This document shows, piece by piece, positions 37,753 to 54,216 of a DNA stretch of 64,000 nt; position 1 is the first letter of the stretch; the number at the start of each line of letters is the position of its first letter. The DNA comes from Sulfurimonas aquatica (GTDB taxonomy: Bacteria > Campylobacterota > Campylobacteria > Campylobacterales > Sulfurimonadaceae): NCBI RefSeq assembly GCF_017357825.1, contig NZ_CP046072.1, positions 62,001-126,000 on the forward strand, written 5' to 3'. Below the pieces are notes generated by a model that saw only the letters and a program-made list of their open reading frames with translations, did not search any database and was not told the DNA's origin. Position numbers and translations under genes: made by a program.

Positions 37753-38649
37753 TTATTGTTTAATTATTTCAGTTGTTTGGCATCTATTATATTCACATTG
37801 AAAAGTAGTGTGTGTTATACCAAAAGAGTTAGAGAGCCTATCTTCAAGTATATCTATGATTTTTTGAGACTCCTCAAGTGATAGGTTGTTATTAAAATCA
37901 AGATGTGCTTCAAGATGGATTCTATGCTCATCTAGTTGCCATAGGTGAAGATGATGGGCATTGTTTATCTCCTCTTGCTGAAGTATGAGACCAAGTATCT
38001 CTTCTAAATCTACATCTTTTGGAGTAAACTGCATCAAAATGGCGCTAGAGTCTTTAACTAAACCCACTGAAGCCCAGATGAGGTAAGTTGCGATGATGAG
38101 TGAGACGATAGGGTCAACCCAGTAGAGTTGATAGTAGTACATTAGTACTCCGCCAACAACTACCGCTACAGAGGTCATAACATCAGTGAGAAGATGAAGA
38201 TAGGCTGCTCTGATATTCATGTTTTCATGGGCATCATCTTTAACTAAAAGAACGCTAATGGCATTTAAAATAATACTCAAAATACCAAGTGCAATAACCC
38301 AGATAGAATCAACAACCTCAGGGTTGTAAAACTTGTGAAATGACTCAAAAATAAGAAAAATACCTATACCTATAAGAACGGAGGCATTAAAAAGAGTTGC
38401 GAGAATCTCAGCACGTTTGTACCCAAAAGTTTTATCGGTATCGCTTGGTTTTGCAGCCAGACGATTTGCGCCATAAGCAACTACTAACGCTATAACATCA
38501 CTAAAGTTATGAAGTGCATCACTCAGTAGTGCTAATGAGCCAGAAAGCACTCCCCCAACTACTTGTGCAAGGGTGATAATAACATTGAGGATGATGGTTA
38601 TAAAAAGATTTTTTCCACTTACATCATGATGGTGATGATCTGCCGACAT
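37753..38649 (-). CDS. Cation diffusion facilitator (CzcD/ZitB-type zinc exporter)
   Basis: 298 residues. Six membrane helices with the two metal-site motifs typical of Zn-type CDF proteins: DALHNFSDV in helix 2 and HLLTDVMTS in helix 5. A His-rich N-terminus (MSADHHHHD) and a C-terminal ferredoxin-like regulatory domain (HHLHLWQLDEHRIHLEAHL) are present. It exports Zn2+ (possibly Cd2+/Co2+) using the proton gradient. AAAGGA precedes the ATG. Downstream is the Na+/H+ antiporter. Confidence 0.92.
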   Translation of the reverse strand: MSADHHHHDVSGKNLFITIILNVIITLAQVVGGVLSGSLALLSDALHNFSDVIALVVAYGANRLAAKPSDTDKTFGYKRAEILATLFNASVLIGIGIFLIFESFHKFYNPEVVDSIWVIALGILSIILNAISVLLVKDDAHENMNIRAAYLHLLTDVMTSVAVVVGGVLMYYYQLYWVDPIVSLIIATYLIWASVGLVKDSSAILMQFTPKDVDLEEILGLILQQEEINNAHHLHLWQLDEHRIHLEAHLDFNNNLSLEESQKIIDILEDRLSNSFGITHTTFQCEYNRCQTTEIIKQ

Positions 38650-38790
38650 ACTGCTTCCTTTGAAGGGTATATAAAAGATATCTTATATGATAACATGAGT
38701 TTGTGTAAGATTACTAATGTGTAAGTGTAAAAAAGAGAGGATAAACTTCCATGCAAGTAAAGAACAAAAATAAGCTCTTTACTTTACTGC

Positions 38791-39327
38791 TTAAAACGCC
38801 AAGTATGCACCAAGGTATGTATTTGTAATCTCTCCGGATGGAACCGTTACTGAATTAGAAGACATTTTATTTCTAATTATTTTAGAATAACCTAGCATCA
38901 CACCTAGTTCATTACCAAAAAGTTGAGTGTAGCCTATGCTTAAAACTAAATCAGCGTTATAACCTCCACGTCCCTCAAAAATTGTATCTGAGTCTGTGTT
39001 TTCCGTATGGTCCCATATAGGCATACCTGCAATAGCTCTAAAGTTCAGATGAAGTGATGAATCATTTAAGTAATACCCCTCATACCAGTATCCAATTTGA
39101 GCTGTTACAGACATAGAACGCTGCTCAGTAACCCCTTGCTGCTGATCTACTCCATTGATTGTAAGTGTTTCATCAGCATGTTGAGGAATCAGAGTTGTAC
39201 TAATCTCGCTTGAATATGCAAAGTTACTTTTGGTCTCATAAAGAGTTCCTACTGTGTAGAGAGGGTTTGTTGATGTTGCATCAGTCTCTATAGTGTCATT
39301 TGTTGTTTTAAAGTTGAGGTTGTTCAT
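38791..39327 (-). pseudogene. N-terminally truncated outer-membrane beta-barrel protein
   Basis: 178 residues that look like the C-terminal part of an outer-membrane barrel: alternating strands (SMSVTAQIGYWYEGYYL, ELGVMLGYSKII) and a terminal Phe in LGAYLAF, the usual Bam recognition end. There is no signal peptide, no ribosome site before the only ATG, and the frame continues upstream with plausible strand sequence (GYSYYRVV) for 13 codons to a stop at 39367-39369. The gene therefore appears to have lost its 5' part. A non-ATG start for a short intact protein is not excluded. Confidence 0.5.
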
Positions 39328-39626
39328 AACAACTCTATAGTATGAGTATCCACATTTTTGTTTGTATTAAGGAGAATGAAAGGAGCTTTAAGAAATAAAA
39401 TGGTTTTACAGCGACTTGATCAAACATATAATACAAGCGAAGAATTATAGTGTAGAAAAAATATATCAATAATTGTATAAAATTTAATCAATTATAAGTA
39501 TATTTTAAAATCATAATATATTACAATCTCCTCACAAAACATGGAATATAGTTTATACTCTCCTTAGATCTACAACTTGTAAACATTTCTATTACCATGT
39601 TTTATAAAATATAATTAGGAAGAAGA
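39328..39626. other. Intergenic region before the porin
   Basis: AT-rich and mostly featureless. Beyond the 13 upstream codons of the truncated barrel frame, no reading frame of note was seen. It contains AATTGTATAAAAT (39471-39483) followed by TTAATCAA; both words recur upstream of the guanidine operon (40980-41002). AGGAAGAAG just before 39627 is the porin ribosome site. Confidence 0.5.
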
Positions 39627-40862
39627 ATGAAATTATTAAAAATAAGTACAGTAGCCGCACTTTTAGTAAGTGCTAATGTATATGCGGTAGAAAATGTAAA
39701 AGTAGGTGGAGACGCTAAACTTTTTTATGGAACACAAGATGCGGGATGGTTTAGCGGTGCAGATTCAGGTCTTTTTGAAAAAGATGCGTCATATGCAGAC
39801 TTTGGAGTTAGTTTAGGTGTTACGGCTGATCTTATGGAAAATGTGAAGGCTGGGGTTAAGGCTCAACTCATAACAACTCTAGGTCTGGAAAATGATATAG
39901 TTGTTGGGGGTTGGTCAAGTGCACACTCAAGCGAAAGTGGTACACTTAAGACAACAGAATGGATTTCAGAAGCATGGATTGAAGGTAAAATTGGTAATAC
40001 AACCGGTACCATAGGTCGTATGACACTAGATACTCCACTTGTATTTACCGAAACATGGAGTATGGATTATAATACTTTTGAAGCGATTACAATTACAAAT
40101 GAAGATATTCCAGATACAACATTAACAGGTATGTTTGTTGGACAGTCAAATGGTTATGGATCTGGTGGAACAGCAGATGCTAACGTTATGGCTTCTGGTG
40201 GTGCATTTAGTAAATTAGGATCTGATGGTGCCTTTATTGTTGGTGCAACTAATAACTCTGTGAAGCCGTTAACGGCACAAGCATGGTACTACAATCTTCC
40301 AAATACGTTGGACGCTTTTTGGTTACAAGCTGATGTAGATTATGAAGGTATCATCGCTGGTGCTCAATATACTACTATTAATAGTGATGGTGGAACGGAT
40401 AGTGATACTGCATTTGCTGTAAAACTAGGTTATGCTATCCCAGATATTGCAACAATAACTGCTGCTTATTCATCAGTAGGTGATAAGGGTGATCGTGGAG
40501 GAGTATATAATATTGCCACTGATGGTCAATATTCTGGTACAGCATCAGCACTTTATACAGAATTCTGGTGGTGGTTCCAAACAGCAAGTGTTACAGGTGC
40601 AAATACTATGACTCTTTCAGCTGAAGGTTCAGTTGCTGATGTAGATTTATTTCTTGGACTATACAGTGCAGAGATTAAACCAGCAACAAGTACTACAACT
40701 GATAAAGTAGATGAAATTACTTTCACCGCAAGTAAATCTTTTGGTCCTATAGACACCTCTATTGCACTTATGTATGATATGTTTGATACAGATGCTGTAA
40801 AAGGTCCAAATTACATGGAAGATTTAACTTCATTCCAAGTATACTTGACTTATAACTACTAA
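39627..40862 (+). CDS. Outer-membrane porin (MOMP/Opr-like)
   Basis: 411 residues with a clear signal peptide (MKLLKISTVAALLVSANVYA), then a barrel rich in Gly, Thr and aromatic residues with repeated strand pairs (VKVGGDAKLFYGTQD, TEWISEAWIEGKIG, TGTIGRMTLDTPLVF), ending in an aromatic strand SFQVYLTYNY. It resembles the substrate-diffusion porins of Campylobacterota. A strong terminator follows. It lies directly before the guanidine operon and shares short upstream words with it, so it could admit guanidine or similar solutes, but that is speculation. Confidence 0.85.
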   Translation: MKLLKISTVAALLVSANVYAVENVKVGGDAKLFYGTQDAGWFSGADSGLFEKDASYADFGVSLGVTADLMENVKAGVKAQLITTLGLENDIVVGGWSSAHSSESGTLKTTEWISEAWIEGKIGNTTGTIGRMTLDTPLVFTETWSMDYNTFEAITITNEDIPDTTLTGMFVGQSNGYGSGGTADANVMASGGAFSKLGSDGAFIVGATNNSVKPLTAQAWYYNLPNTLDAFWLQADVDYEGIIAGAQYTTINSDGGTDSDTAFAVKLGYAIPDIATITAAYSSVGDKGDRGGVYNIATDGQYSGTASALYTEFWWWFQTASVTGANTMTLSAEGSVADVDLFLGLYSAEIKPATSTTTDKVDEITFTASKSFGPIDTSIALMYDMFDTDAVKGPNYMEDLTSFQVYLTYNY

Positions 40863-41023: not shown

Positions 41024-41071
41024 TATTTCAGAAAACATATCATGAGGTTGAAAACCTCACTGCAACTAATA

Positions 41072-41207
41072 GACAACTAGGGTTCCGATGAAATATTTCA
41101 TGTCTGGTCCGAGAGTTGTCAACCTTTTGAATAGAGGTTACACGGAGGGATAAAAGCCCGGGAGGTTATCTACCTCTTGGTGTGTTTACCTTAAATCTAT
41201 TCAGGAG
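41072..41207 (+). promoter_or_regulatory. Guanidine-I riboswitch (ykkC subtype 1) with translational expression platform
   Basis: Aptamer core words match the ykkC consensus in order: CTAGGGTTCCG, a variable hairpin (ATGAAATATTTCAT), CTGGTCCGAGAG, then ACACGGAGGGATAAAAGCC and CGGGAG. P1 is GACAACT (41072-41078) with AGTTGTC (41114-41120). The next helix is AACCT/AGGTT (41121-41139). One strand plus loop of that helix, CTTTTGAATAGA (41124-41135), can instead pair over 12 continuous positions (two G-T wobbles) with TCTATTCAGGAG (41196-41207), which contains the Shine-Dalgarno AGGAG of the first gene. Ligand would favour the aptamer and free the ribosome site: an ON switch. Downstream genes are the known guanidine set, which supports subtype 1 over the ppGpp or PRPP subtypes. 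Confidence 0.93.
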
Positions 41208-41213
41208 TTTTTT

Positions 41214-42281
41214 ATGAAATCTTTTTTTACATCAACATCAAAATTATTAGTTGCCACAGCTTTAGTTAGCACACTTGGCTCATCATTACTTATGGCTGAG
41301 GTCAAAGACAAATTTCAAGTATCATGGACGATTTATGTAGGTTTTATGCCTTGGGATTATGCTCAGCAAAAAGGAATCGTAGATAAATGGGCTAAAAAAT
41401 ATGACATAGAAATAGATTTAGTTCAAGTTAACGACTATATAGAATCAATCAATCAGTATACTGCCGGTAAATTTGATGGTTGTTTAATGACAAATATGGA
41501 TGCACTAACTATCCCTGCTGCAAGTGGTGTTGACTCTACTGCACTAATTATGGGTGATTTTTCAAATGGAAATGACGGTATTGTTCTTAAAGGTACAAAT
41601 AAACTTTCTGATATAAAAGGTCAAAATGTAAACCTTGTTGAGCTTTCAGTTTCTCATTATCTTCTTGCTCGTGGTTTAGAGACTGTTGGTCTTAGCGAAA
41701 AAGATATTACTGTTGTAAATACATCAGATGCAGATATGGTTGCTGCTTATACATCAAGTGAAGTAACAGCATTAACACCATGGAATCCTCAACTCAGTGA
41801 AATTATGTCAATGAAAGATGCAAACCTAGTATTTGATTCAAGTGCAATCCCTGGTGAAATCATCGATATGCTTGTTGTAAATACAGATACATTAAAAGAT
41901 AACCCCAAGTTTGCAAAAGCTTTAACTGGTGCATGGTTTGAAGTTATGGCACTAATGAAAAAAGGTGACAAGGAAGCTTTAACATTTATGGCAGAAGCAT
42001 CTGGTACTGATCTTGCAGGCTTTAAAGGTCAACTTAATTCTACAAAGATGTTTTATGACGCAAGTGAAGCAGTTGAATTTTCTCTAAGTAATGAACTCCC
42101 AAACACAATGAAGAAAGTGAGTGAATTCTCATTTGATCACGGTATTTTAGGTGAAGGTGCTCCAAATGCAGAGTTTATTGGTATGGAATTTCCAAATGGA
42201 AAAACTTTTGGAGATACAAAAAATATCAAACTCCGTTTCATTGATACTTATGTGAAAATGTCTGCTGATGGGAAATTATAA
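41214..42281 (+). CDS. ABC transporter substrate-binding protein (NitT/TauT type, probable guanidine importer)
   Basis: 355 residues with a signal peptide ending near LLMAEVKDKF and the NMT1/SsuA-like fold (YVGFMPWDYAQQKGIVDKW; TAGKFDGCLMTNMDAL). First gene after the guanidine-I riboswitch, with the SD (AGGAG) seven bases before the ATG. Similar binding proteins occur in guanidine/urea carboxylase operons under ykkC control. It probably captures guanidinium, or a guanidino compound, in the periplasm for the permease and ATPase encoded next. The substrate is inferred from context. Confidence 0.88.
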   Translation: MKSFFTSTSKLLVATALVSTLGSSLLMAEVKDKFQVSWTIYVGFMPWDYAQQKGIVDKWAKKYDIEIDLVQVNDYIESINQYTAGKFDGCLMTNMDALTIPAASGVDSTALIMGDFSNGNDGIVLKGTNKLSDIKGQNVNLVELSVSHYLLARGLETVGLSEKDITVVNTSDADMVAAYTSSEVTALTPWNPQLSEIMSMKDANLVFDSSAIPGEIIDMLVVNTDTLKDNPKFAKALTGAWFEVMALMKKGDKEALTFMAEASGTDLAGFKGQLNSTKMFYDASEAVEFSLSNELPNTMKKVSEFSFDHGILGEGAPNAEFIGMEFPNGKTFGDTKNIKLRFIDTYVKMSADGKL

Positions 42282-42290
42282 GATATCACT

Positions 42291-43115
42291 ATGAAACGAT
42301 TAATGAACTTACGCCCGTCAAAAGCGACAAAATTCTTTTTAGGACTTCTACCATTTTTGATAGTGGGTATTTTCTATATCATTGCATCAGATATACGTCT
42401 AATGGAAAATCCACATGACAAGTTATTGCCATCCCTTACTAGTTTCTCAAAAGCTATCGATAGAATGGCTCTAACACCAAGTAAACGAACAGGTGAAATT
42501 TTATTTATAAATGATACTTCTGCTTCACTTCAACGTCTTGGACTAGGTATTCTCATAAGTGCTATATTGGCAATGCTTATAGGAATTCCATTAGGATTTA
42601 TTCCCTTTGTAAGAGCTGGTTTTTCACCTTTTGTGGCCGCTTTTTCAATGATTCCTCCTATCGCGGTACTTCCTATACTTTTTATAGTCTTTGGAATGGG
42701 AGAACTCGCAAAAGTAGCTCTGATTGTTATTGGTGTTACACCTTTAATAGTTCGAGACCTTCAGCAACGTGTATCTGAGATACCCGCTGAACAGATTATT
42801 AAAGCACAAACTTTAGGGGGTTCTACTTGGACTATTGTAGTTCGAGTAATACTGCCACAAATTATGCCAAGATTACTTGACTCAGTACGTCTAACACTAG
42901 GTACAGCTTGGATATTTTTGATATCTGCAGAAGCAATTGCTGCAACCGAAGGTTTAGGATATAGAATATTTTTAGTACGTCGCTATATGTCTATGGATGT
43001 CATTTTACCTTATGTAGCATGGATAACTATCTTAGCATTTTTGTTTGACTATTTCTTAAAGAAAATTACTTACAAACTTTTCCCTTGGTATAGTGGTGCA
43101 AAGGAAAATACATGA
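42291..43115 (+). CDS. ABC transporter permease of the guanidine operon
   Basis: 274 residues. BPD_transp_1-type permease with about six helices and the EAA loop AEQIIKAQTLGGSTWTIV...LPQIMP that contacts the ATPase. A periplasmic insert of about 50 residues lies between the first and second helices (SDIRLMENPHDKLLPSL). The ATG of the ATPase gene overlaps this stop (ATGA). Inner membrane; partner of the preceding binding protein. Confidence 0.9.
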   Translation: MKRLMNLRPSKATKFFLGLLPFLIVGIFYIIASDIRLMENPHDKLLPSLTSFSKAIDRMALTPSKRTGEILFINDTSASLQRLGLGILISAILAMLIGIPLGFIPFVRAGFSPFVAAFSMIPPIAVLPILFIVFGMGELAKVALIVIGVTPLIVRDLQQRVSEIPAEQIIKAQTLGGSTWTIVVRVILPQIMPRLLDSVRLTLGTAWIFLISAEAIAATEGLGYRIFLVRRYMSMDVILPYVAWITILAFLFDYFLKKITYKLFPWYSGAKENT

Positions 43116-43882
43116 GTTTAATTACTATTAAAAACCTTTGGAAAGAGTATGGAGATAATGTTGTTTTAGAAAAAATCTCTCTTAACATTCAAGAGGGAGA
43201 GTTTTGTACACTTGTTGGACCTTCAGGCTGTGGAAAAACAACTTTTTTGAAGATGCTACTAGGACAAGAGACACCAACAAGAGGAACTTTTCTACTTGAG
43301 GGTAAGCCTTTTCCGCAAGAGCCAAGTTTAGAAAGAGGAATTGTATTTCAACGTTACTCTGTATTTGAAAACTTAACAGTACTTGGAAATGTTCTGCTCT
43401 CTATCGAGCTTAAAGAGTCGAAGTTTTTTGGACATCTTTTTGGATTAAAACGCCAAAAAGCGAAAGAGGCTGCAATAAAGATGCTTAATGCTGTTGGACT
43501 CGCAGAGTCTCTGCATAAGTATCCTACTGAACTCTCCGGTGGTATGCAACAGCGTTTATCAATTGCACAATCTTTAGTAAATAAACCAAAGATATTATTA
43601 CTAGATGAGCCGTTTGGAGCTCTTGACCCTGGTATACGTGCTGATATGCATGCACTTATATTAGATTTATGGAAGAAACACAACTTAACTGTTGTTATGG
43701 TTACACATGATTTACATGAGAGTTTTTACCTTGGAAGTCGTCTTCTAGTATTTGACAAGGTGAGAAATGACTCACAAGCACCTAACAGATTTGGAGCACA
43801 AATTACTTATGACATTCCTGTTGGTAGTGAAGGAATGATAATGACAAAAATTAATAAATCTCTAAAAGAAGGAAACAAATGA
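43112..43882 (+). CDS. ABC transporter ATP-binding protein of the guanidine operon
   Basis: 256 residues. Walker A is GPSGCGKTT, the signature LSGGMQQRLSIAQ, Walker B ILLLDEPFGALD and the switch His in VTHD. It is of the SsuB/TauB type and completes the importer with the two preceding genes. It overlaps both neighbours by ATGA junctions, so translation of the four genes is coupled. Confidence 0.93.
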   Translation: MSLITIKNLWKEYGDNVVLEKISLNIQEGEFCTLVGPSGCGKTTFLKMLLGQETPTRGTFLLEGKPFPQEPSLERGIVFQRYSVFENLTVLGNVLLSIELKESKFFGHLFGLKRQKAKEAAIKMLNAVGLAESLHKYPTELSGGMQQRLSIAQSLVNKPKILLLDEPFGALDPGIRADMHALILDLWKKHNLTVVMVTHDLHESFYLGSRLLVFDKVRNDSQAPNRFGAQITYDIPVGSEGMIMTKINKSLKEGNK

Positions 43883-44616
43883 TAATAGAACATACAAAAA
43901 TTAAACCTGAAAATATACTCTTAGAAGAGACACTTCCTGGTGGTGCTAGGTGGTCAAAAATAATTCGTCGTGGCGATAAAATACGTATTAGCAGTAAAGA
44001 TGGTTTGGCATCTCTTTCAGCAATGTTTTACAATGCAGATAATAAGGCAGAACGATTTAACTCTGCAGATACTGTAAAAGTACAACATAATGCTTTTTTC
44101 ACTAAAGGACAATCTCTATACTCAGAACTAGGTCGTATACTTTTTTCTATAACTGATGACACTACGGGTGGTCTTTTTGATGCAATTACTGGAATCAGCA
44201 ATCCACGTATTTTAAAAGAGAATTTTGGTAATGGTACTTATGAAGATTTACGAAATCGTTACCATAAAAGTGATCGTGAAAACTTTTTAGTTGAACTTGG
44301 AAAGTATGGAATGGGTAAACGCGATATGGTTCAAGCGATTAACTTTTTTAGAAGAGTAGATGTCGTTGATGGAAATAAACTAGAACTTTCTTCTAAACGT
44401 GCTGAACCAGAGAGTTATATTGACTTACGTGCTGAAATGAACGTACTACTTGTGCTATCAAATACGCCTCATGTTATGGAAAAAGGTGACTACAATCCTA
44501 GTGATGTTCAACTTACACTTTATAAAGGGTCCCCCGTAACAGAAGATGACCTTTGTAGACATTTCAGTCCACAATCACAGCGTGCATTTATAAATAATGA
44601 CCGCTACTTTGCCTAA
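43879..44616 (+). CDS. Carboxyguanidine deiminase subunit, DUF1989 (UAAP1)
   Basis: 245 residues of the DUF1989/urea-amidolyase-associated protein family: LPGGARWSKIIRRGDKIRI, FYNADNKAERFNSADT, then DPRD-like and SYIDLRAEMNVLLVLSNTPH. In guanidine degraders the two DUF1989 proteins form carboxyguanidine deiminase, which converts carboxyguanidine to allophanate. Earlier annotations call them urea carboxylase-associated. The segment that is CGNHDTLGGHC in the partner is TGGLFDAITGISN here, so this subunit lacks the Cys pair. ATGA overlap with the ATPase gene. Confidence 0.88.
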   Translation: MIIEHTKIKPENILLEETLPGGARWSKIIRRGDKIRISSKDGLASLSAMFYNADNKAERFNSADTVKVQHNAFFTKGQSLYSELGRILFSITDDTTGGLFDAITGISNPRILKENFGNGTYEDLRNRYHKSDRENFLVELGKYGMGKRDMVQAINFFRRVDVVDGNKLELSSKRAEPESYIDLRAEMNVLLVLSNTPHVMEKGDYNPSDVQLTLYKGSPVTEDDLCRHFSPQSQRAFINNDRYFA

Positions 44617-44626
44617 GGAAAAAATA

Positions 44627-45247
44627 ATGAGCCAAAATATTGAAAATGAAATTTATAATGAAAAGATCGCAGCAGGTGTTCCTTGGAGCTATGTTGTAAA
44701 AAAAGGGCAAACTCTTCGTATAGTTGACCTTGAAGGATGTCAAGCAGTTGATACGCTTTTTTACAATGCAAATGATCATGAAGAACGCTACTCTGCAAAT
44801 GATACAGTAAGAGAACAAGGAAGTATCTTTGTTTCGACTGGAACAAAACTTATCTCTACTGATGATAATGTAATGATGGAAGTGGTGGCAGATACTTGCG
44901 GTAATCACGACACACTTGGTGGACACTGTAGTGCTGAGAGTAACACAGTTAGGTATGCACTTGATAGAAAATACATGCATAGTTGTCGTGATAATTATCT
45001 CTATGAGATAGGTGAGTTAGAAATGGACCCTAGAGATTTAACAAATAACATAAACTTTTTCATGAATGTTCCAGTGGAAGAAGATGGTCATCTTATTATA
45101 GTTGATGGTATATCTAAGCCAGGTGCATATGTCGATATGAAAGCAGAAATGGATACATTAGTTTTGGTTTCAAATTGTCCACAACTTAACAATCCATGTA
45201 ATGCTTTTAATCCAACTCCTGTACAGATGATTATCTGGGAGGACTAA
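44627..45247 (+). CDS. Carboxyguanidine deiminase subunit, DUF1989 (UAAP2)
   Basis: 206 residues, homologous to the preceding protein: AGVPWSYVVKKGQTLRIVD, FYNANDHEERYSANDT and DTCGNHDTLGGHCSAESN, with two Cys and two His that could bind a metal or act in catalysis. It ends near MKAEMDTLVLVSNCPQLNNPCN. The ATG at 44627 was chosen because AAGGA lies just upstream; an in-frame start at 44597 overlaps the previous gene without a site. Together with the preceding subunit it should make allophanate from carboxyguanidine. Confidence 0.88.
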   Translation: MSQNIENEIYNEKIAAGVPWSYVVKKGQTLRIVDLEGCQAVDTLFYNANDHEERYSANDTVREQGSIFVSTGTKLISTDDNVMMEVVADTCGNHDTLGGHCSAESNTVRYALDRKYMHSCRDNYLYEIGELEMDPRDLTNNINFFMNVPVEEDGHLIIVDGISKPGAYVDMKAEMDTLVLVSNCPQLNNPCNAFNPTPVQMIIWED

Positions 45248-45251
45248 AATT

Positions 45252-46259
45252 ATGACTAAAATTATAAAATTATTTAGACATAATGATGCATTGATGCCTA
45301 ATGTATTAGCATGGTCATATGTCTTGTTTACATACATATTTGGTTTTATGGCAATACTAGCCAATGATTTATGGATAAATGCTATAGGTGTGATTTTTTT
45401 GGCACATTCTATGGTTATAGCAGCATATTTTATTCATGAATGTGCACATGAGTCTGTTTTTAAACAGAGTCGCCACAATCAAATACTTGGTGAAATTCTT
45501 TTATGGATAACGGGAAACTCTTATAGCGACTACAAAGCACTTAAGAAAAAACATGTTCGCCATCACATGGATAGAGCGGACATCGTCTCTTTTGATTTTA
45601 GAGAAAAACTCAGCGAGTATCCAAAAACGCTAAAACTACTGCAAACACTAGAGTGGTTTTACATACCAGCACTTGAAATCATGATGCATGCTTTGGTGAT
45701 TGTGCTTCCATTTATAAAAAGCAATCGTAAACATCTTCGCTCAAGAGTAGCACTTGTTTTAGCTCTTCGTATAACTATGTTTACACTTTTAGCTTCTATC
45801 TCGCTAAAAGTGCTTGTTTTATATCCTATAGCTTACATGATTTTTTTGACTGTTATGCGTTTTATGGATGTTCACCAACATACTTACGACTTGTATGAAA
45901 CACTAGACCAAGAGCGAGGCGAAGAGGTGAAAAAGTATGATGGTGCTTTTGAGATTGCAAACACCTACTCAAACTTAATCTCGGAGCGTTTTGCATGGTT
46001 AAATCTTTTTGTGCTCAACTTCTCGTATCACAATGTTCACCATGACCAACAAATGCAACCCTGGTATGCTCTGCCTAAGTTACATGACAAGCTTTATAAA
46101 GGGAATGAAACGCGAGTGCTAACATTTTCAAAACTTTTAAAAAGTTACCACACGTACCGAGTGGCGCGCATCATAAATGCTGATGAACCATATACAAATG
46201 TTCATCATGGTAAAGATTTTATTGGAGTGGATGGCGTTTCGTTTTTGACGGCACACTAA
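45252..46259 (+). CDS. Membrane di-iron fatty acid desaturase/hydroxylase-like protein
   Basis: 335 residues with about four membrane helices and the three His boxes of membrane di-iron oxygenases: H62ECAH66E, H101VRH104H105 and H260NVH263H264, plus HQH near 205. The family includes desaturases and hydroxylases that need O2 and an electron donor. It begins four bases after the deiminase subunit stop, so it is part of the guanidine operon, where I know of no described role for such an enzyme. Hypothesis: it oxidises an alkylguanidine or other guanidino compound next to the guanidine-bearing carbon so that guanidine is released. A lipid role is also possible. Confidence 0.8.
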   Translation: MTKIIKLFRHNDALMPNVLAWSYVLFTYIFGFMAILANDLWINAIGVIFLAHSMVIAAYFIHECAHESVFKQSRHNQILGEILLWITGNSYSDYKALKKKHVRHHMDRADIVSFDFREKLSEYPKTLKLLQTLEWFYIPALEIMMHALVIVLPFIKSNRKHLRSRVALVLALRITMFTLLASISLKVLVLYPIAYMIFLTVMRFMDVHQHTYDLYETLDQERGEEVKKYDGAFEIANTYSNLISERFAWLNLFVLNFSYHNVHHDQQMQPWYALPKLHDKLYKGNETRVLTFSKLLKSYHTYRVARIINADEPYTNVHHGKDFIGVDGVSFLTAH

Positions 46260-46269
46260 AGGATTTTTG

Positions 46270-47052
46270 ATGACACAAGTAAAAAGATTTACACCCATAC
46301 TTACGGGAACTCATCGTTACGAGAAGACACTCTCAACTCGTGGACACGGTAAAGGGGTGATTATTGAAGCACCTATTTTAGCTTATCTCATAGAGACTAG
46401 AAATGGACGGATTTTGTATGACGTTGGCTGTGACTATAGCAAAATCGCAAATGAAGTTAAACGCAAGAAGTTCTATGAAAACGATGGTTTTGAGTTTGGT
46501 GCACCCACTATGAGTGAAGAACAAAGACTTCCAAATCGACTGGCAGAGCTCGGTTTACTCAAAGAAGATATTGATGTGGTGTTTTGTGGTCATCTTCATT
46601 TTGACCATGCAGGTGGATTATGTGAAATGTGTCATGCTGATGTACATGTTCATAAAGCTGAATTAGAGAGTGCTAAAAACCTAGAAGATGAGGCTTATTT
46701 TGCAGAGGATTTTGACTGTCCCATAAACTGGAAAGTTTTTGAAAAAGAGTACAGCCTCATTGATGGTGTAAGAGCTATTGAAACACCAGGTCATACAGCT
46801 GGGCACATGTCTATGCTCATCGAACTTCCAAAAGGAAAGCCAATTTTACTTGCAGGCGATGCGGCGGACTTGAGTGAAAACATAGAAAAAGAGATAGCAC
46901 CAGGGCTTTGCTGGCAAGAGAATGAACAGATGGCTATACAGAGTATTCGTAAGCTTAAAGATATAGCAGACAAAGAGAACGCTCAAATATGGCCAAATCA
47001 CGATATGAAGTTTTTTAAGTCTAAAAACTGTTTTCCACAGTTTCTTTCTTAG
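46270..47052 (+). CDS. Metallo-beta-lactamase fold hydrolase (N-acyl-homoserine-lactonase-like)
   Basis: 260 residues. Zinc ligands are visible: H108LH110FD112H113 in GHLHFDHAGG, His in ETPGHTAGHMSM, Asp in LLAGDAADL and His in IWPNHDM. The overall pattern (LIETRNGRILYDVGCD near the start, the long insert before HxHxDH) fits the AHL-lactonase/AttM-like branch of the fold. AAAGGA precedes the ATG at 46270; a TTG three bases earlier is less likely. It is 10 bases after the desaturase-like gene. Its substrate could be a lactone or ester, perhaps a by-product of the upstream oxygenase, but this is inference. Confidence 0.85.
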   Translation: MTQVKRFTPILTGTHRYEKTLSTRGHGKGVIIEAPILAYLIETRNGRILYDVGCDYSKIANEVKRKKFYENDGFEFGAPTMSEEQRLPNRLAELGLLKEDIDVVFCGHLHFDHAGGLCEMCHADVHVHKAELESAKNLEDEAYFAEDFDCPINWKVFEKEYSLIDGVRAIETPGHTAGHMSMLIELPKGKPILLAGDAADLSENIEKEIAPGLCWQENEQMAIQSIRKLKDIADKENAQIWPNHDMKFFKSKNCFPQFLS

Positions 47053-47079
47053 CACTTGGAAAAGAGTATATCTTCTCCC

Positions 47080-47121
47080 TTTCACAAGACGGCTTGTGAA
47101 ATGTATCAACCGGGACGGCCC
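47080..47121 (+). promoter_or_regulatory. Guanidine-II riboswitch (mini-ykkC)
   Basis: Two adjacent hairpins have the diagnostic ACGR loops. P1 is TTTCACAAG, loop ACGG, CTTGTGAAA (9 bp, 47080-47101). P2 is GGG, loop ACGG, CCC (47112-47121), the near-invariant mini-ykkC second hairpin. The linker is 10 bases. The carboxylase SD (TAAGGA, 47137-47142) and ATG (47149) follow at the spacing expected for translational control. In this class guanidine binds both loops, which dock, and expression is turned on. The anti-SD pairing was not resolved. It lies inside the operon, in the 96-base gap between the lactonase-like gene and the carboxylase gene. Confidence 0.92.
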
Positions 47122-47148
47122 ACAAAATTTACTATCTAAGGAAAACAA

Positions 47149-50758: not shown

Positions 50759-51601
50759 ATGAAACTTGAAAATTTTAAAACTATGTGGGGATTCGAAGGT
50801 GACTTTGAGACAGCTTGTATTCAAGCGAAAGAAGCTGGCTTCGAAGGTATAGAAGGACCATCGCCACAAGATCAAAAAGAACGTGATTATTGGAAAACCT
50901 GTTTAGAAAAATATGAGCTAGAATTTATTGCTGAGATTACAACAGGTGGTGATTATGTACCTAAGAGAGACCATAGTGTAATAGAACATATTAGCGATGT
51001 GGAAATAGCTATTAAGAACTCTCTAGAACTAAACCCACGTTTTATGAACTGCATGGGTGGCTGTGATGCATGGGAAGAAGAGGATAGTATTATATTTTTT
51101 AAATCAGCAATTGCAATAGCAAAAAGTTATGACATAGAAATCTCTTTTGAAACTCATCGTAGTCGTTCTTTATTTACACCTTGGGTTACTAGACGTATGA
51201 CTAAAGCAATACCAGAGATGAAATTGACTTTAGATATTAGTCACTGGTGTGTAGTTGCAGAACGTCTTATGGATACAGAGATGGATACAATTAAAGCAAT
51301 AGCACCAAATGTTCATCATTTTCATGCTCGTGTTGGTTATGCTCAAGGTCCCCAAGTGCCACATCCCGCAGCACCTGAGTATCAAAAAGCTCTACAATCT
51401 CATCAAGAGTGCTGGGAGTTAGCCTGGGATTCTCAAAAAGCAAAGGGAATGAAAATCTCTACAATGACACCTGAATTTGGACCAGATGGCTATCTACATA
51501 CACTACCATTTACAAATGCACCTATTGCTGATTTATGGGAAATCAACTGTTGGATGGCAGAGACACAAAAGAAGCATTTTAATGACTATACTAAATATTA
51601 A
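50759..51601 (+). CDS. Sugar phosphate isomerase/epimerase-like TIM-barrel protein
   Basis: 280 residues of the xylose-isomerase-like TIM-barrel (AP-endonuclease family 2) fold. Possible metal ligands are in FIAEITTGG, EISFETHRSR, LTLDISHWCVVAE, VHHFHARVGYAQG and TMTPEFGPDGY. The ATG at 50759 has AAAGGA upstream; longer in-frame starts overlap the carboxylase. It lies 10 bases after the carboxylase. The role in guanidine metabolism is unknown; handling of the carbon skeleton left after guanidine release is one possibility. Family confident, function open. Confidence 0.8.
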   Translation: MKLENFKTMWGFEGDFETACIQAKEAGFEGIEGPSPQDQKERDYWKTCLEKYELEFIAEITTGGDYVPKRDHSVIEHISDVEIAIKNSLELNPRFMNCMGGCDAWEEEDSIIFFKSAIAIAKSYDIEISFETHRSRSLFTPWVTRRMTKAIPEMKLTLDISHWCVVAERLMDTEMDTIKAIAPNVHHFHARVGYAQGPQVPHPAAPEYQKALQSHQECWELAWDSQKAKGMKISTMTPEFGPDGYLHTLPFTNAPIADLWEINCWMAETQKKHFNDYTKY

Positions 51602-52487
51602 AGAGCAACTTCCGGTAATTGTATTATTTGTTGCTTCTGTACTTTGGGGACTAACATGGTTACCTCTTAAAGCTATTAATGCTACAGGAATTGATGGAAT
51701 TGCACTTATTTTCTTTGCCTATGCAATATTGGCAGTAGTATTAAGCCCATTGCTTATTAAACAGTTTTCAATTTGGAAAGAACATAAGAAAATGATGTTT
51801 TTAATCGCACTCCTTGGGGGCGGTGCAAACCTTGCATTTACTTATGCTCTCATAAATGGTGAAGTGATTCGTGTAATGGTCTTGTTTTACCTCTTACCCG
51901 TATGGGGTGTAGCTGGTGGACGAATATTTCTAAAAGAGAAAATCGATTCTTGGCGTTATCTTGGTGTCACATTAGCAATAGCAGGAGCATTTATAATTCT
52001 TGGTGGTTTCGAAATTTTTAATACACCACCCTCATGGATTGACCTAGTTGCCTTAGTTTCTGGCCTTTTCTTTTCCATGAATAATTTACTCTTTAGAGCG
52101 GCTCAAAGTATTCCGGTAAGTTCAAAACTAGGCATTATGTTTTTAGGTTGTTTTACTTTAGCAGGAACATTATTACTTTCAGGAGTAGAAGAACTTCCAA
52201 CACATGTCATAAGTAATGGCTGGATAATGCTAATAATGTACACTTTATTTTGGCTATTGCTAGCGAATATTGGATCACAATGGAGTGTTACACATATGGA
52301 GGCTGGTCGATCGTCAATTATTATGATTTTCGAGCTTATTGCAGCTGTTGCTTCAGCTACTATAATTGCTCATGAGAGCATGTCAACATTTGAATATATA
52401 GGTGGTTCACTTATAATGGCAGCTGCGTCTATAGAAGCATTTCGTACTAAAGATGATGATATACCTACAATTAAAATTGAATTATAA
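51582..52487 (+). CDS. EamA-family (DMT) transporter
   Basis: 301 residues, ten predicted helices in two EamA repeats (VIVLFVASVLWGLTWLPLKA; VALVSGLFFSMNNLLFRAA). It overlaps the previous gene by 20 bases. The DMT superfamily also contains the small guanidinium exporters of the SugE/Gdx type, which are the usual partners of guanidine riboswitches, so this could be an overflow exporter for guanidine or a product exporter. Substrate inferred from context only. Confidence 0.82.
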   Translation: MTILNIKEQLPVIVLFVASVLWGLTWLPLKAINATGIDGIALIFFAYAILAVVLSPLLIKQFSIWKEHKKMMFLIALLGGGANLAFTYALINGEVIRVMVLFYLLPVWGVAGGRIFLKEKIDSWRYLGVTLAIAGAFIILGGFEIFNTPPSWIDLVALVSGLFFSMNNLLFRAAQSIPVSSKLGIMFLGCFTLAGTLLLSGVEELPTHVISNGWIMLIMYTLFWLLLANIGSQWSVTHMEAGRSSIIMIFELIAAVASATIIAHESMSTFEYIGGSLIMAAASIEAFRTKDDDIPTIKIEL

Positions 52488-52496
52488 AGGAAAAAT

Positions 52497-53831
52497 ATGA
52501 CAATTTCAAGTTTACAAAAATCATATAAAGACAAAGAACTCTCCCCAAGAGAGTTAATGCAGCAGATAAAAGAGAAGATAGAGATACATAAAGATAATCC
52601 TATCTGGATTCATGTTTTAAGTGAGGATGAACTAGAGCCTTATCTCAAGAGACTCGAATCAAGCGATGTAGACTCTTTGCCACTTTATGGTGTTCCCTTC
52701 GCTATTAAAGACAATATAGACTTAAAGGACATTCCTACTACAGCCGCCTGTCCTGATTATAGTTACGTACCTGATAAATCTGCTTACGTAGTTGAGCAAC
52801 TTATAAACGCGGGAGCCATCCCAGTTGGAAAAACAAATCTAGACCAGTTTGCAACGGGGCTGGTAGGTACTCGCTCACCCTATGGAGCGTGTCAAAACAG
52901 CATAAACGCAGAGTATATTTCAGGTGGTTCTAGCTCAGGGAGCGCGGTAAGCGTGGCTTTAGATATGGCACTCTTTTCACTTGGAACAGACACAGCAGGT
53001 TCAGGTCGCGTTCCCGCAGCGTTTAATAATCTCGTAGGAGTAAAACCATCAAAAGGAATCTTAAGCACTTCAGGGGTTGTACCAGCATGTAGAAGTCTTG
53101 ACTGTGTCTCTATCTTTGCTAAAAATAGTGAAGACGCAAGTAGAGTTTTAGACATAGCTATCTCTTTTGATGAGAGTGATCCATACTCAAGAGTGATGCC
53201 AGATGTGAAACATAACGTTAAGTCGCCTTTCTCTTTTGCCATTGTAAAACAAGAACAGTTGAAGTTTTTCGAGGATAATGAAGCTGAGGAGCTCTATAAA
53301 AAAGCCGTGAAGCATTTTGAGATGATGGGTGGTAAAGCGCTTGAGATAGACTTTTCACCGATGCTTGAAGCTGCAAACCTTCTCTACTATGGACCATGGG
53401 TTACAGAGCGTTACGTCGCTCTAAAAGATATGGTGGAGACAAAACCTGAGAGTTTTATGGATGTTACTAAAACAATAGTCTTATCTGGAAAAACAAAAAG
53501 CGCCGAGGATTATTTTAACGCCGAGTATAAAATAAAAGCCTATAAACGCCAAGCGGATATCTTAATGAAAAACATTGACTTTGCTTTGACTCCAACTACC
53601 GGAACCATTTATACCATCGATGAAGTAAACGCGGATCCAATAGAGCTCAACAGCAACCTTGGTTACTACACAAACTTTATGAACCTACTTGATTTTTCTG
53701 CCTATGCGATTCCTGCAGGATTTAGAAAGAATGGCTTGCCTTTTGGAGTGACGCTTTTTGCTGAGGCGTTTGAGGATAGAAAACTAATCAACTACGGCAA
53801 ATTATTTACGTCAAAGGATTTCAATGTCTAA
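52497..53831 (+). CDS. atzF: Allophanate hydrolase, amidase domain (AtzF-like)
   Basis: 444 residues of the amidase-signature family. Catalytic Lys is in PFAIKDNIDL, and the Ser-cisSer pair is in ISGGSSSGSA and TDTAGSGRVPA. Allophanate hydrolase turns allophanate into ammonia and CO2, the last step of the pathway. Most AtzF proteins carry a second C-terminal domain in the same chain (~600 aa in total); here it is a separate gene overlapping this stop by eight bases. GGAAAAAT precedes the ATG. Confidence 0.9.
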   Translation: MTISSLQKSYKDKELSPRELMQQIKEKIEIHKDNPIWIHVLSEDELEPYLKRLESSDVDSLPLYGVPFAIKDNIDLKDIPTTAACPDYSYVPDKSAYVVEQLINAGAIPVGKTNLDQFATGLVGTRSPYGACQNSINAEYISGGSSSGSAVSVALDMALFSLGTDTAGSGRVPAAFNNLVGVKPSKGILSTSGVVPACRSLDCVSIFAKNSEDASRVLDIAISFDESDPYSRVMPDVKHNVKSPFSFAIVKQEQLKFFEDNEAEELYKKAVKHFEMMGGKALEIDFSPMLEAANLLYYGPWVTERYVALKDMVETKPESFMDVTKTIVLSGKTKSAEDYFNAEYKIKAYKRQADILMKNIDFALTPTTGTIYTIDEVNADPIELNSNLGYYTNFMNLLDFSAYAIPAGFRKNGLPFGVTLFAEAFEDRKLINYGKLFTSKDFNV

Positions 53832-54216
53832 AACAATAGAAATAGCGGTATGTGGTGCCCATATGAGTGGACTCCCTCTAAATCATCAACTAGTAATGCT
53901 AAACGCGAGTTTTGTAAAGGCGACTTCAACGGCGAGAGGGTATAGACTCTTTGACGTGCCGCAGAAGCTTCCTCCTCGTCCTGGAATGATTCGAGACGCT
54001 AAAAGTGAAAGCTCTCTAACATTGGAAGTATGGTCAATGCCACTTGAGAACTTTGGAGCGTTTATGATTCAGATTGCCTCGCCTCTGTGTATAGGAAGTG
54101 TAATCCTTGAGGATGAGAGCATAGTTTATGGCTTTTTATGTGAGAGCGATTATCTTGAGGGTGCTAAAGAGATAACCGAGTATGGGGGATGGAGAGAGTA
54201 TCTTGCTTCAAAGTAA
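53824..54216 (+). CDS. Allophanate hydrolase C-terminal domain as a separate protein
   Basis: 130 residues matching the AtzF C-terminal domain, which has a gamma-glutamylcyclotransferase-like fold: EIAVCGAHMSGLPLNHQL, RGYRLFDVP, RPGMIRD and EVWSMPLENFGAFM, then TEYGGWREYL. In fused enzymes this domain helps decarboxylate the intermediate. The ATG overlaps the end of the amidase gene, so the subunits are made together. The split is intact on both sides: each part has its own start and stop. Confidence 0.88.
   Translation: MSKTIEIAVCGAHMSGLPLNHQLVMLNASFVKATSTARGYRLFDVPQKLPPRPGMIRDAKSESSLTLEVWSMPLENFGAFMIQIASPLCIGSVILEDESIVYGFLCESDYLEGAKEITEYGGWREYLASK

Follow-up and report, generated by a model that had tools for sequence, protein, structure and literature searches.

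Two predicted guanidine riboswitches of different classes in a putative guanidine-assimilation operon of Sulfurimonas aquatica

Layout of the locus

The 64,000-nucleotide stretch of Sulfurimonas aquatica DNA analysed here (contig NZ_CP046072.1, positions 62,001 to 126,000, referred to below as the window and numbered from its first base) carries on its forward strand a run of genes with two RNA elements, a guanidine-I (ykkC) aptamer at the 5' end and a guanidine-II (mini-ykkC) double hairpin in the interior. The order is guanidine-I, ABC importer, two DUF1989 genes, a desaturase-like gene, an MBL-fold gene, guanidine-II, carboxylase, a TIM-barrel gene, an EamA gene and a split allophanate hydrolase (Table 1). 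The importer starts 47 bases after the end of the aptamer, and from the importer to the MBL-fold gene neighbouring genes overlap or lie at most 9 bases apart. The desaturase-like and MBL-fold genes separate the second DUF1989 gene from guanidine-II.

The carboxylase, the two DUF1989 deiminase subunits and the allophanate hydrolase are all present together, and make up the gene set of the guanidine carboxylase pathway. The models matched by the DUF1989 pair are themselves called UAAP1 and UAAP2, and the predicted function, carboxyguanidine deiminase, follows the naming in the literature. The carboxylase matches a family model named for urea carboxylase, and its deiminase and riboswitch neighbours point to guanidine rather than urea as the substrate. 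We consider it probable that the operon serves guanidine assimilation in a Sulfurimonas-type bacterium and is under the control of two serial ON-switches for guanidine.

Table 1. Features of the locus, with positions in the window.
Feature	Position	Strand	Basis and remarks
Opr/OprD-like outer-membrane porin gene, 5' of the operon	39627..40862	+	weak Opr/OprD matches, below curated cut-offs
Guanidine-I (ykkC) riboswitch aptamer	41066..41166	+	RF00442, 94.8 bits, cut-off 63
Aptamer P2 strand, with the Shine-Dalgarno region as putative alternative partner	41124..41135	+	pair counts on 33 leaders; folding P = 0.99 (window)
Terminator-like hairpin overlapping aptamer 3' end	41158..41180	+	pattern scan; U tract weak by eye
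Shine-Dalgarno region of importer gene, complementary to P2 strand	41196..41207	+	leader pairing analyses
ABC importer substrate-binding protein	41214..42281	+	TIGR03427, 560 bits, cut-off 333.9
ABC importer permease	42291..43115	+	PF00528
ABC importer ATPase	43112..43882	+	PF00005
Carboxyguanidine deiminase subunit-like (DUF1989, UAAP1)	43879..44616	+	TIGR03425, 280.4 bits, cut-off 205.95; PF09347
Carboxyguanidine deiminase subunit-like (DUF1989, UAAP2)	44597..45247	+	TIGR03424, 345.6 bits, cut-off 284.7
Fatty-acid-desaturase-like membrane protein, accessory	45252..46259	+	PF00487, 119 bits; NCBIfam matches all far below cut-offs
MBL-fold hydrolase, lactonase-like, accessory	46267..47052	+	PF00753; AiiA-type model 148.7 bits, below cut-off 375
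Guanidine-II (mini-ykkC) riboswitch; P1 about 47080-47101, P2 about 47111-47122, ACGG loops	47081..47122	+	RF01068, 22.6 bits, below cut-off 32; conserved and covarying in relatives
Guanidine (urea-type) carboxylase, 1199 residues	47149..50748	+	TIGR02712 'urea carboxylase', 1922 bits
Xylose-isomerase-like TIM barrel protein, accessory	50759..51601	+	PF01261; start inferred from translation
EamA-family transporter	51477..52487	+	PF00892; true start uncertain
Allophanate hydrolase, amidase part	52497..53831	+	TIGR02713 and PRK08186, over cut-offs
Allophanate hydrolase C-terminal part, separate overlapping gene	53824..54216	+	PF21986 AH_C

Identification of the two RNAs

The original prediction, made by reading the sequence of the window, had placed a guanidine-I aptamer before the importer genes (at 41072-41185) and a guanidine-II double hairpin with two ACGG loops directly before the carboxylase, so that the sensors would split the operon into an importer and deiminase half and a carboxylase and allophanate half. 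Covariance models gave a match at both sites, that of guanidine-II under the curated score, and the division of the operon is as proposed. The RF00442 match is full-length (model positions 1-107 of 107, E-value 6.1e-16), and its score, above the curated one, identifies the element as guanidine-I with predicted binding of guanidine.

The RF01068 match, also full-length, scored below the gathering score (E 0.64 when 15.5 kb were scanned with 4227 Rfam families), and the element is therefore missing from an Rfam list drawn at curated thresholds. When the 2.85 Mb genome (two contigs) was searched with this model singly, it was the sole match at E ≤ 10, with an E-value of 0.028. It lies within the 96-base gap between the MBL-fold gene and the carboxylase, 26 bases 5' of the carboxylase start. 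The ACGR loop of each hairpin is closed by G-C pairs, the two hairpins being UUUCACAAG-ACGG-CUUGUGAAA and GGG-ACGG-CCC, and the linker is shorter than in the RF01068 consensus.

Covariation was assessed on 20 Campylobacterota sequences, comprising carboxylase-side and cgdA-side copies. The stems are 95.3% paired, compared with 82.1% in shuffles and at most 57.6% in slid controls; there are 47 double-change cells (12.7 ± 4.1 in shuffles), and the covariation score is 0.495 (0.215 in shuffles). Two further counts on this set did not exceed shuffles, namely the pairs showing a double change (7 vs 5.4, 74 of 500) and the pair types (17 vs 16.3, 213 of 500). Folding of the 96-base gap barely beats shuffles (z -1.68, with 11 of 200 as good), and by itself is weak evidence; a chance match is ruled out by the conservation in relatives and the covariation. 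By these comparisons the second RNA is a predicted guanidine-II riboswitch and more than a chance resemblance.

Distribution of the two classes

Guanidine-II was searched for in 200 genomes of the family: 28, counting the window's, matched at E ≤ 1, and 8 have a match over the cut-off. Guanidine-I was searched for in 18 of these 28, which are the window's genome, 15 with a guanidine-II E-value below 0.02 and G105 and G186 with weak matches (E 0.6; genomes and loci are cited by G and L numbers); the other 10, all weak, were left out. In all 15 relatives guanidine-I is found upstream on the same strand and guanidine-II lies 22-28 bases 5' of the carboxylase, over the cut-off in 6 of the 15. No guanidine-I was found in G105 or G186. 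The order guanidine-I, importer, cgdAB, guanidine-II, carboxylase, allophanate hydrolase is the same in these 15 relatives, with one contig (L146) ending within the carboxylase, and the spacing of 22-28 bases holds whether the gene before guanidine-II is cgdB or the MBL-fold gene.

Of the family's 16 copies on the carboxylase side, the guanidine-II of the window scores lowest (the next, in G183, has 23.3 bits), its P2 is down to three standard pairs, and an anti-Shine-Dalgarno element was not found for it, as might be expected of an element that had decayed and lost its switching in Sulfurimonas aquatica. P1 nevertheless retains its full nine pairs, and the two ACGG loops are intact. The outer P2 pair, which is C-G in 13 of the 20 sequences and U-A in 5, is missing in L016 as well as in the window. 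Decay of the element appears very improbable to us.

A survey of the class covered 397 genomes, with a guanidine-II threshold of E ≤ 0.1 and the two match tables compared by eye. Guanidine-I occurs in 24 of these genomes and guanidine-II in 34, over the cut-off in 25. The two classes are co-located in 19, including the window's genome, with guanidine-II about 4-6 kb downstream of guanidine-I on the same strand; 11 of the 19 belong to the window's family, 7 to the family holding Sulfurospirillum cavolei and 1 to a third family. Guanidine-I is present without a co-located guanidine-II in G062, G070, G485, G555 and G573, and the last two have guanidine-II elsewhere.

For a wider comparison 50 carboxylase loci were chosen by hand from 80 listed, again with guanidine-II counted at E ≤ 0.1. 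In 22 loci both classes lie upstream on the same strand; 16 have guanidine-I alone, 9 have guanidine-II alone and 3 have neither. That an RNA and a carboxylase share a contig was judged from coordinates and equal contig numbers, not from names. Loci L052, with guanidine-I on another contig, and L058, with guanidine-II 15 kb away, were not counted as having both, and the 22 include L104 (guanidine-II 1.4 kb 5' of the carboxylase) and L042 (guanidine-I 10 kb 5' of it) as well as L031 and L033, which duplicate the contigs of G183 and G093. Some counted guanidine-II matches fall under the Rfam score, among them L041 (20.5 bits), L031 (23.3 bits) and L045 (25.7 bits). The start of the carboxylase is at most 57 bases from guanidine-II in 29 of the 50 loci, and records of Gallionella, Thiobacillus, Zoogloea, Variovorax, Vibrio and Moraxellaceae are among the 22 with both classes.

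Nine relatives carry three guanidine riboswitches. In five the extra element is a guanidine-II double hairpin in the gap between the ATPase gene and cgdA, in L142 (G010), L144 (G027), L145 (G036), L137 (G044) and L140 (G025); the first four belong to genus g10, in which this copy lies 2.7 kb downstream of guanidine-I. In the other four (G016, G046, G059 and G079) it is a guanidine-I that precedes a porin-like gene, about 1.6 kb 5' of the other guanidine-I. Loci with this extra guanidine-I (L134, L135, L136 and L139) have homologues of the window's porin-like gene with 50-52% identity, and its product is a candidate guanidine-induced outer-membrane channel. The interval 38600-39800, 5' of the porin-like gene in the window, gave no Rfam match at E ≤ 5, and a decayed guanidine-I at this place was dropped as a candidate. 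Further homologues of the porin-like gene precede the operon in L141 (66% identity) and follow it in the four genomes of g10 (L137, L142, L144 and L145; 43-44%).

The original prediction also took the two sensors as a sign that the operon had been joined from two modules, each keeping its own. In its strong form, in which the sensors are the trace of a fusion of two separate operons and not a working two-step control, this explanation is in our judgement unlikely. The many loci with guanidine-I alone or guanidine-II alone are compatible with joined modules, as is the way in which guanidine-II keeps to the carboxylase whichever gene lies before it. Against fusion, Campylobacterota, Beta- and Gammaproteobacteria all have examples of the two-sensor layout, which is therefore old or repeatedly made, and retained. 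Since some relatives have extra sensors before cgdA and before the porin-like gene, repeated gain, one sensor for each translation unit, is equally explanatory, and it looks as though sensors gained unit by unit account for the locus as well as would the fusion of two ready-made modules.

Pairing in the guanidine-I leader

The leader between the aptamer and the importer gene is conserved in the Campylobacterota lineage. The loci contain 79 distinct guanidine-I leaders; 74 entered the comparisons, after five had been dropped for lack of a recognised core or start, and 33 were aligned. A 12-base complementarity links one strand of the aptamer P2 in the window to the Shine-Dalgarno region of the importer gene. 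Across the 33 leaders 93.9% of the cells in this helix are paired, compared with 86.1% in shuffles and 36.9-53.5% when the partner is slid by 1-3 columns. The helix covaries, with 36 double-change cells (11.9 ± 3.4 in shuffles) and a double change in 6 of its 12 pairs (3.8 in shuffles, reached by 1 of 500), and typical exchanges between P2 and the Shine-Dalgarno region are GAGUAG/CUACUC, GAAUAG/CUAUUC and AAAUAG/CUAUUU. In 30 of the 33 leaders, free folding places the Shine-Dalgarno region in the P2 helix with P > 0.5. A second folding count at the same threshold gave 32 of 35 Campylobacterota leaders vs 10 of 39 elsewhere; with P2 shuffled, the mean was 0.11 in the first group and 0.09 in the second.

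Because the same strand makes the P2 of the aptamer, the aptamer-formed and Shine-Dalgarno-masked states should be largely exclusive. Judged from these pairings, the guanidine-I leader of Campylobacterota may also gate translation, and not transcription alone; for the step between P2 and the Shine-Dalgarno region, taken by itself, we incline slightly towards acceptance.

In the competing account guanidine-I acts by transcription termination, the mode commonly given for this class, guanidine-II alone acts on translation, and the complementarity of P2 to the Shine-Dalgarno region is secondary. The review PMC12186494 describes guanidine-I as transcriptional, and PMC12508155 presumes so. The terminator-like hairpin overlapping the aptamer covaries weakly (6 double-change cells, where shuffles give 2.2; 4 of 500), and a clear U run lies 3' of it in L159-L162. 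Outside these four, the window included, the U tract looks weak by eye, and a double change is seen in only 1 of the 9 pairs of this hairpin, as against 6 of 12 in the Shine-Dalgarno helix. We give transcription termination a serious chance, though one somewhat short of even.

Two side observations concern these leaders. Loci L159-L162 belong to G062 and G070, each of which has two guanidine-I elements about 11.4 kb apart on opposite strands, and they combine the U run behind the terminator-like hairpin with pairing to the Shine-Dalgarno region. By eye, ACACG in the aptamer was also noted as a candidate partner of a conserved downstream YGUGU.

Proposed working of the operon

In the two-switch scheme that we favour, guanidine-I at the 5' end would turn on the importer and the genes downstream of it, and guanidine-II within the message would turn on translation of the carboxylase, so that the ATP-using step would be taken only once guanidine is inside the cell. 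With no ligand, the P2 strand of guanidine-I would fold onto the importer Shine-Dalgarno region and mask the ribosome site; with ligand bound, P2 would be held in the aptamer and the ribosome site freed, making a translational ON-switch. The sequence comparisons show the two RNAs, their conservation and the covarying pairing; we infer for both RNAs of the window the binding of guanidine, the direction of switching and this physiological role. As no shared masking element was found here, the proposed freeing of the carboxylase Shine-Dalgarno region by guanidine-II rests on analogy with published systems, where PMC12186494 and PMC12508155 present guanidine-II as a translational switch of this kind.

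Several observations weigh against this scheme. The score of guanidine-II is below the Rfam cut-off, which is a curation threshold and not a structural feature, and its outermost P2 pair is C-A. A search for an anti-Shine-Dalgarno element of guanidine-II, in which the start codon was placed too early in at least 3 of 22 sequences (L009, L171 and L182), found none, the duplex energy being -8.06 for cognate and -8.03 for permuted partners (2369 of 5000 as good). For the guanidine-I leader, the helix was defined from the window's row of the alignment, and the number of pair types in the 33 leaders is not above shuffles (11 vs 10.1, 113 of 500). Swapping partners among 31 Campylobacterota leaders gave an equally good result in 0 of 10000 trials, yet among 36 comparison leaders it did so in only 14 of 10000; relatedness and base composition therefore add to the signal. 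Three of the four leaders of porin-like genes (L127, L129 and L130) are without the pairing. Finally, the weakly covarying terminator-like hairpin behind guanidine-I means that transcriptional control may also operate. Separately, a hairpin spotted by eye 5' of the guanidine-II P1 was considered as a masking element and set aside, as it gave no cognate signal.

More tentatively, and with some doubt, we extend the scheme to the lineage: the guanidine-I aptamer of Campylobacterota would serve as its own anti-Shine-Dalgarno, both classes would gate translation, and the loci would form a ladder of gated units (porin, importer, deiminase and carboxylase) with up to three sensors and two classes per locus.

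Accessory genes

The allophanate hydrolase is in two pieces also in those relatives whose region extends that far. In the fetched flanks of 80 carboxylase loci the desaturase-like, MBL-fold and TIM-barrel genes recur in 8, 9 and 5 cases, respectively, the loci concerned being L034, L036, L037, L042, L053, L054, L062, L065, L075 and L081. These three genes possibly provide a side route by which guanidine is released from a substituted guanidine, comparable to mgdH/mgdL elsewhere.

Significance and comparison with known systems

The present analysis extends a known two-sensor operon layout to Campylobacterota and finds it to be frequent, in 22 of the 50 hand-chosen carboxylase loci. To this it adds the covarying pairing of P2 with the Shine-Dalgarno region in Campylobacterota, which offers a testable translational mechanism for guanidine-I, and loci with three guanidine riboswitches. 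Loci with one, two or three sensors offer a natural series in which to ask why two sensor classes for one ligand are stacked in bacteria. The primary paper on the enterobacterial guanidine operons is reportedly that of Sinn et al. from 2021.

The original prediction knew of no described case, and in this respect it does not hold: earlier work on other bacteria has described this layout and tested it, and Sulfurimonas represents another phylum. Section 6 of the review PMC12186494 (2025) gives the same division for Raoultella terrigena, Erwinia rhapontici and Klebsiella michiganensis, and in PMC12508155 (2025) both RNAs of the Vreelandella boliviensis operon were in-line probed and each bound guanidine. 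The apparent dissociation constants reported there, 44 µM for guanidine-I and 93 µM for guanidine-II, are about 2-fold apart, which makes the suggestion that the two sensors respond at different guanidine levels a weak one. In those data the larger contrast between the classes is in specificity and not in affinity, guanidine-II binding methylguanidine (83 µM) and guanidine-I not doing so in the tested range.

As in the enterobacterial operons of PMC12186494, which are likened here by description and not by sequence and come from a different phylum, the importer and deaminase genes stand under guanidine-I, and the carboxylase and allophanate hydrolase under a guanidine-II immediately downstream. 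The V. boliviensis operon, as presented in PMC12508155, likewise has guanidine-I in the 5'-untranslated region and guanidine-II between cgdB and the carboxylase gene, and it too unites the ABC importer with the carboxylase and the allophanate hydrolase. It differs in its accessory genes, which are mgdH/mgdL, whereas Sulfurimonas has the desaturase-like, MBL-fold, TIM-barrel and EamA genes, and in that its guanidine-I is presumed there to be transcriptional, while that of the Sulfurimonas lineage has a covarying pairing with the Shine-Dalgarno region.

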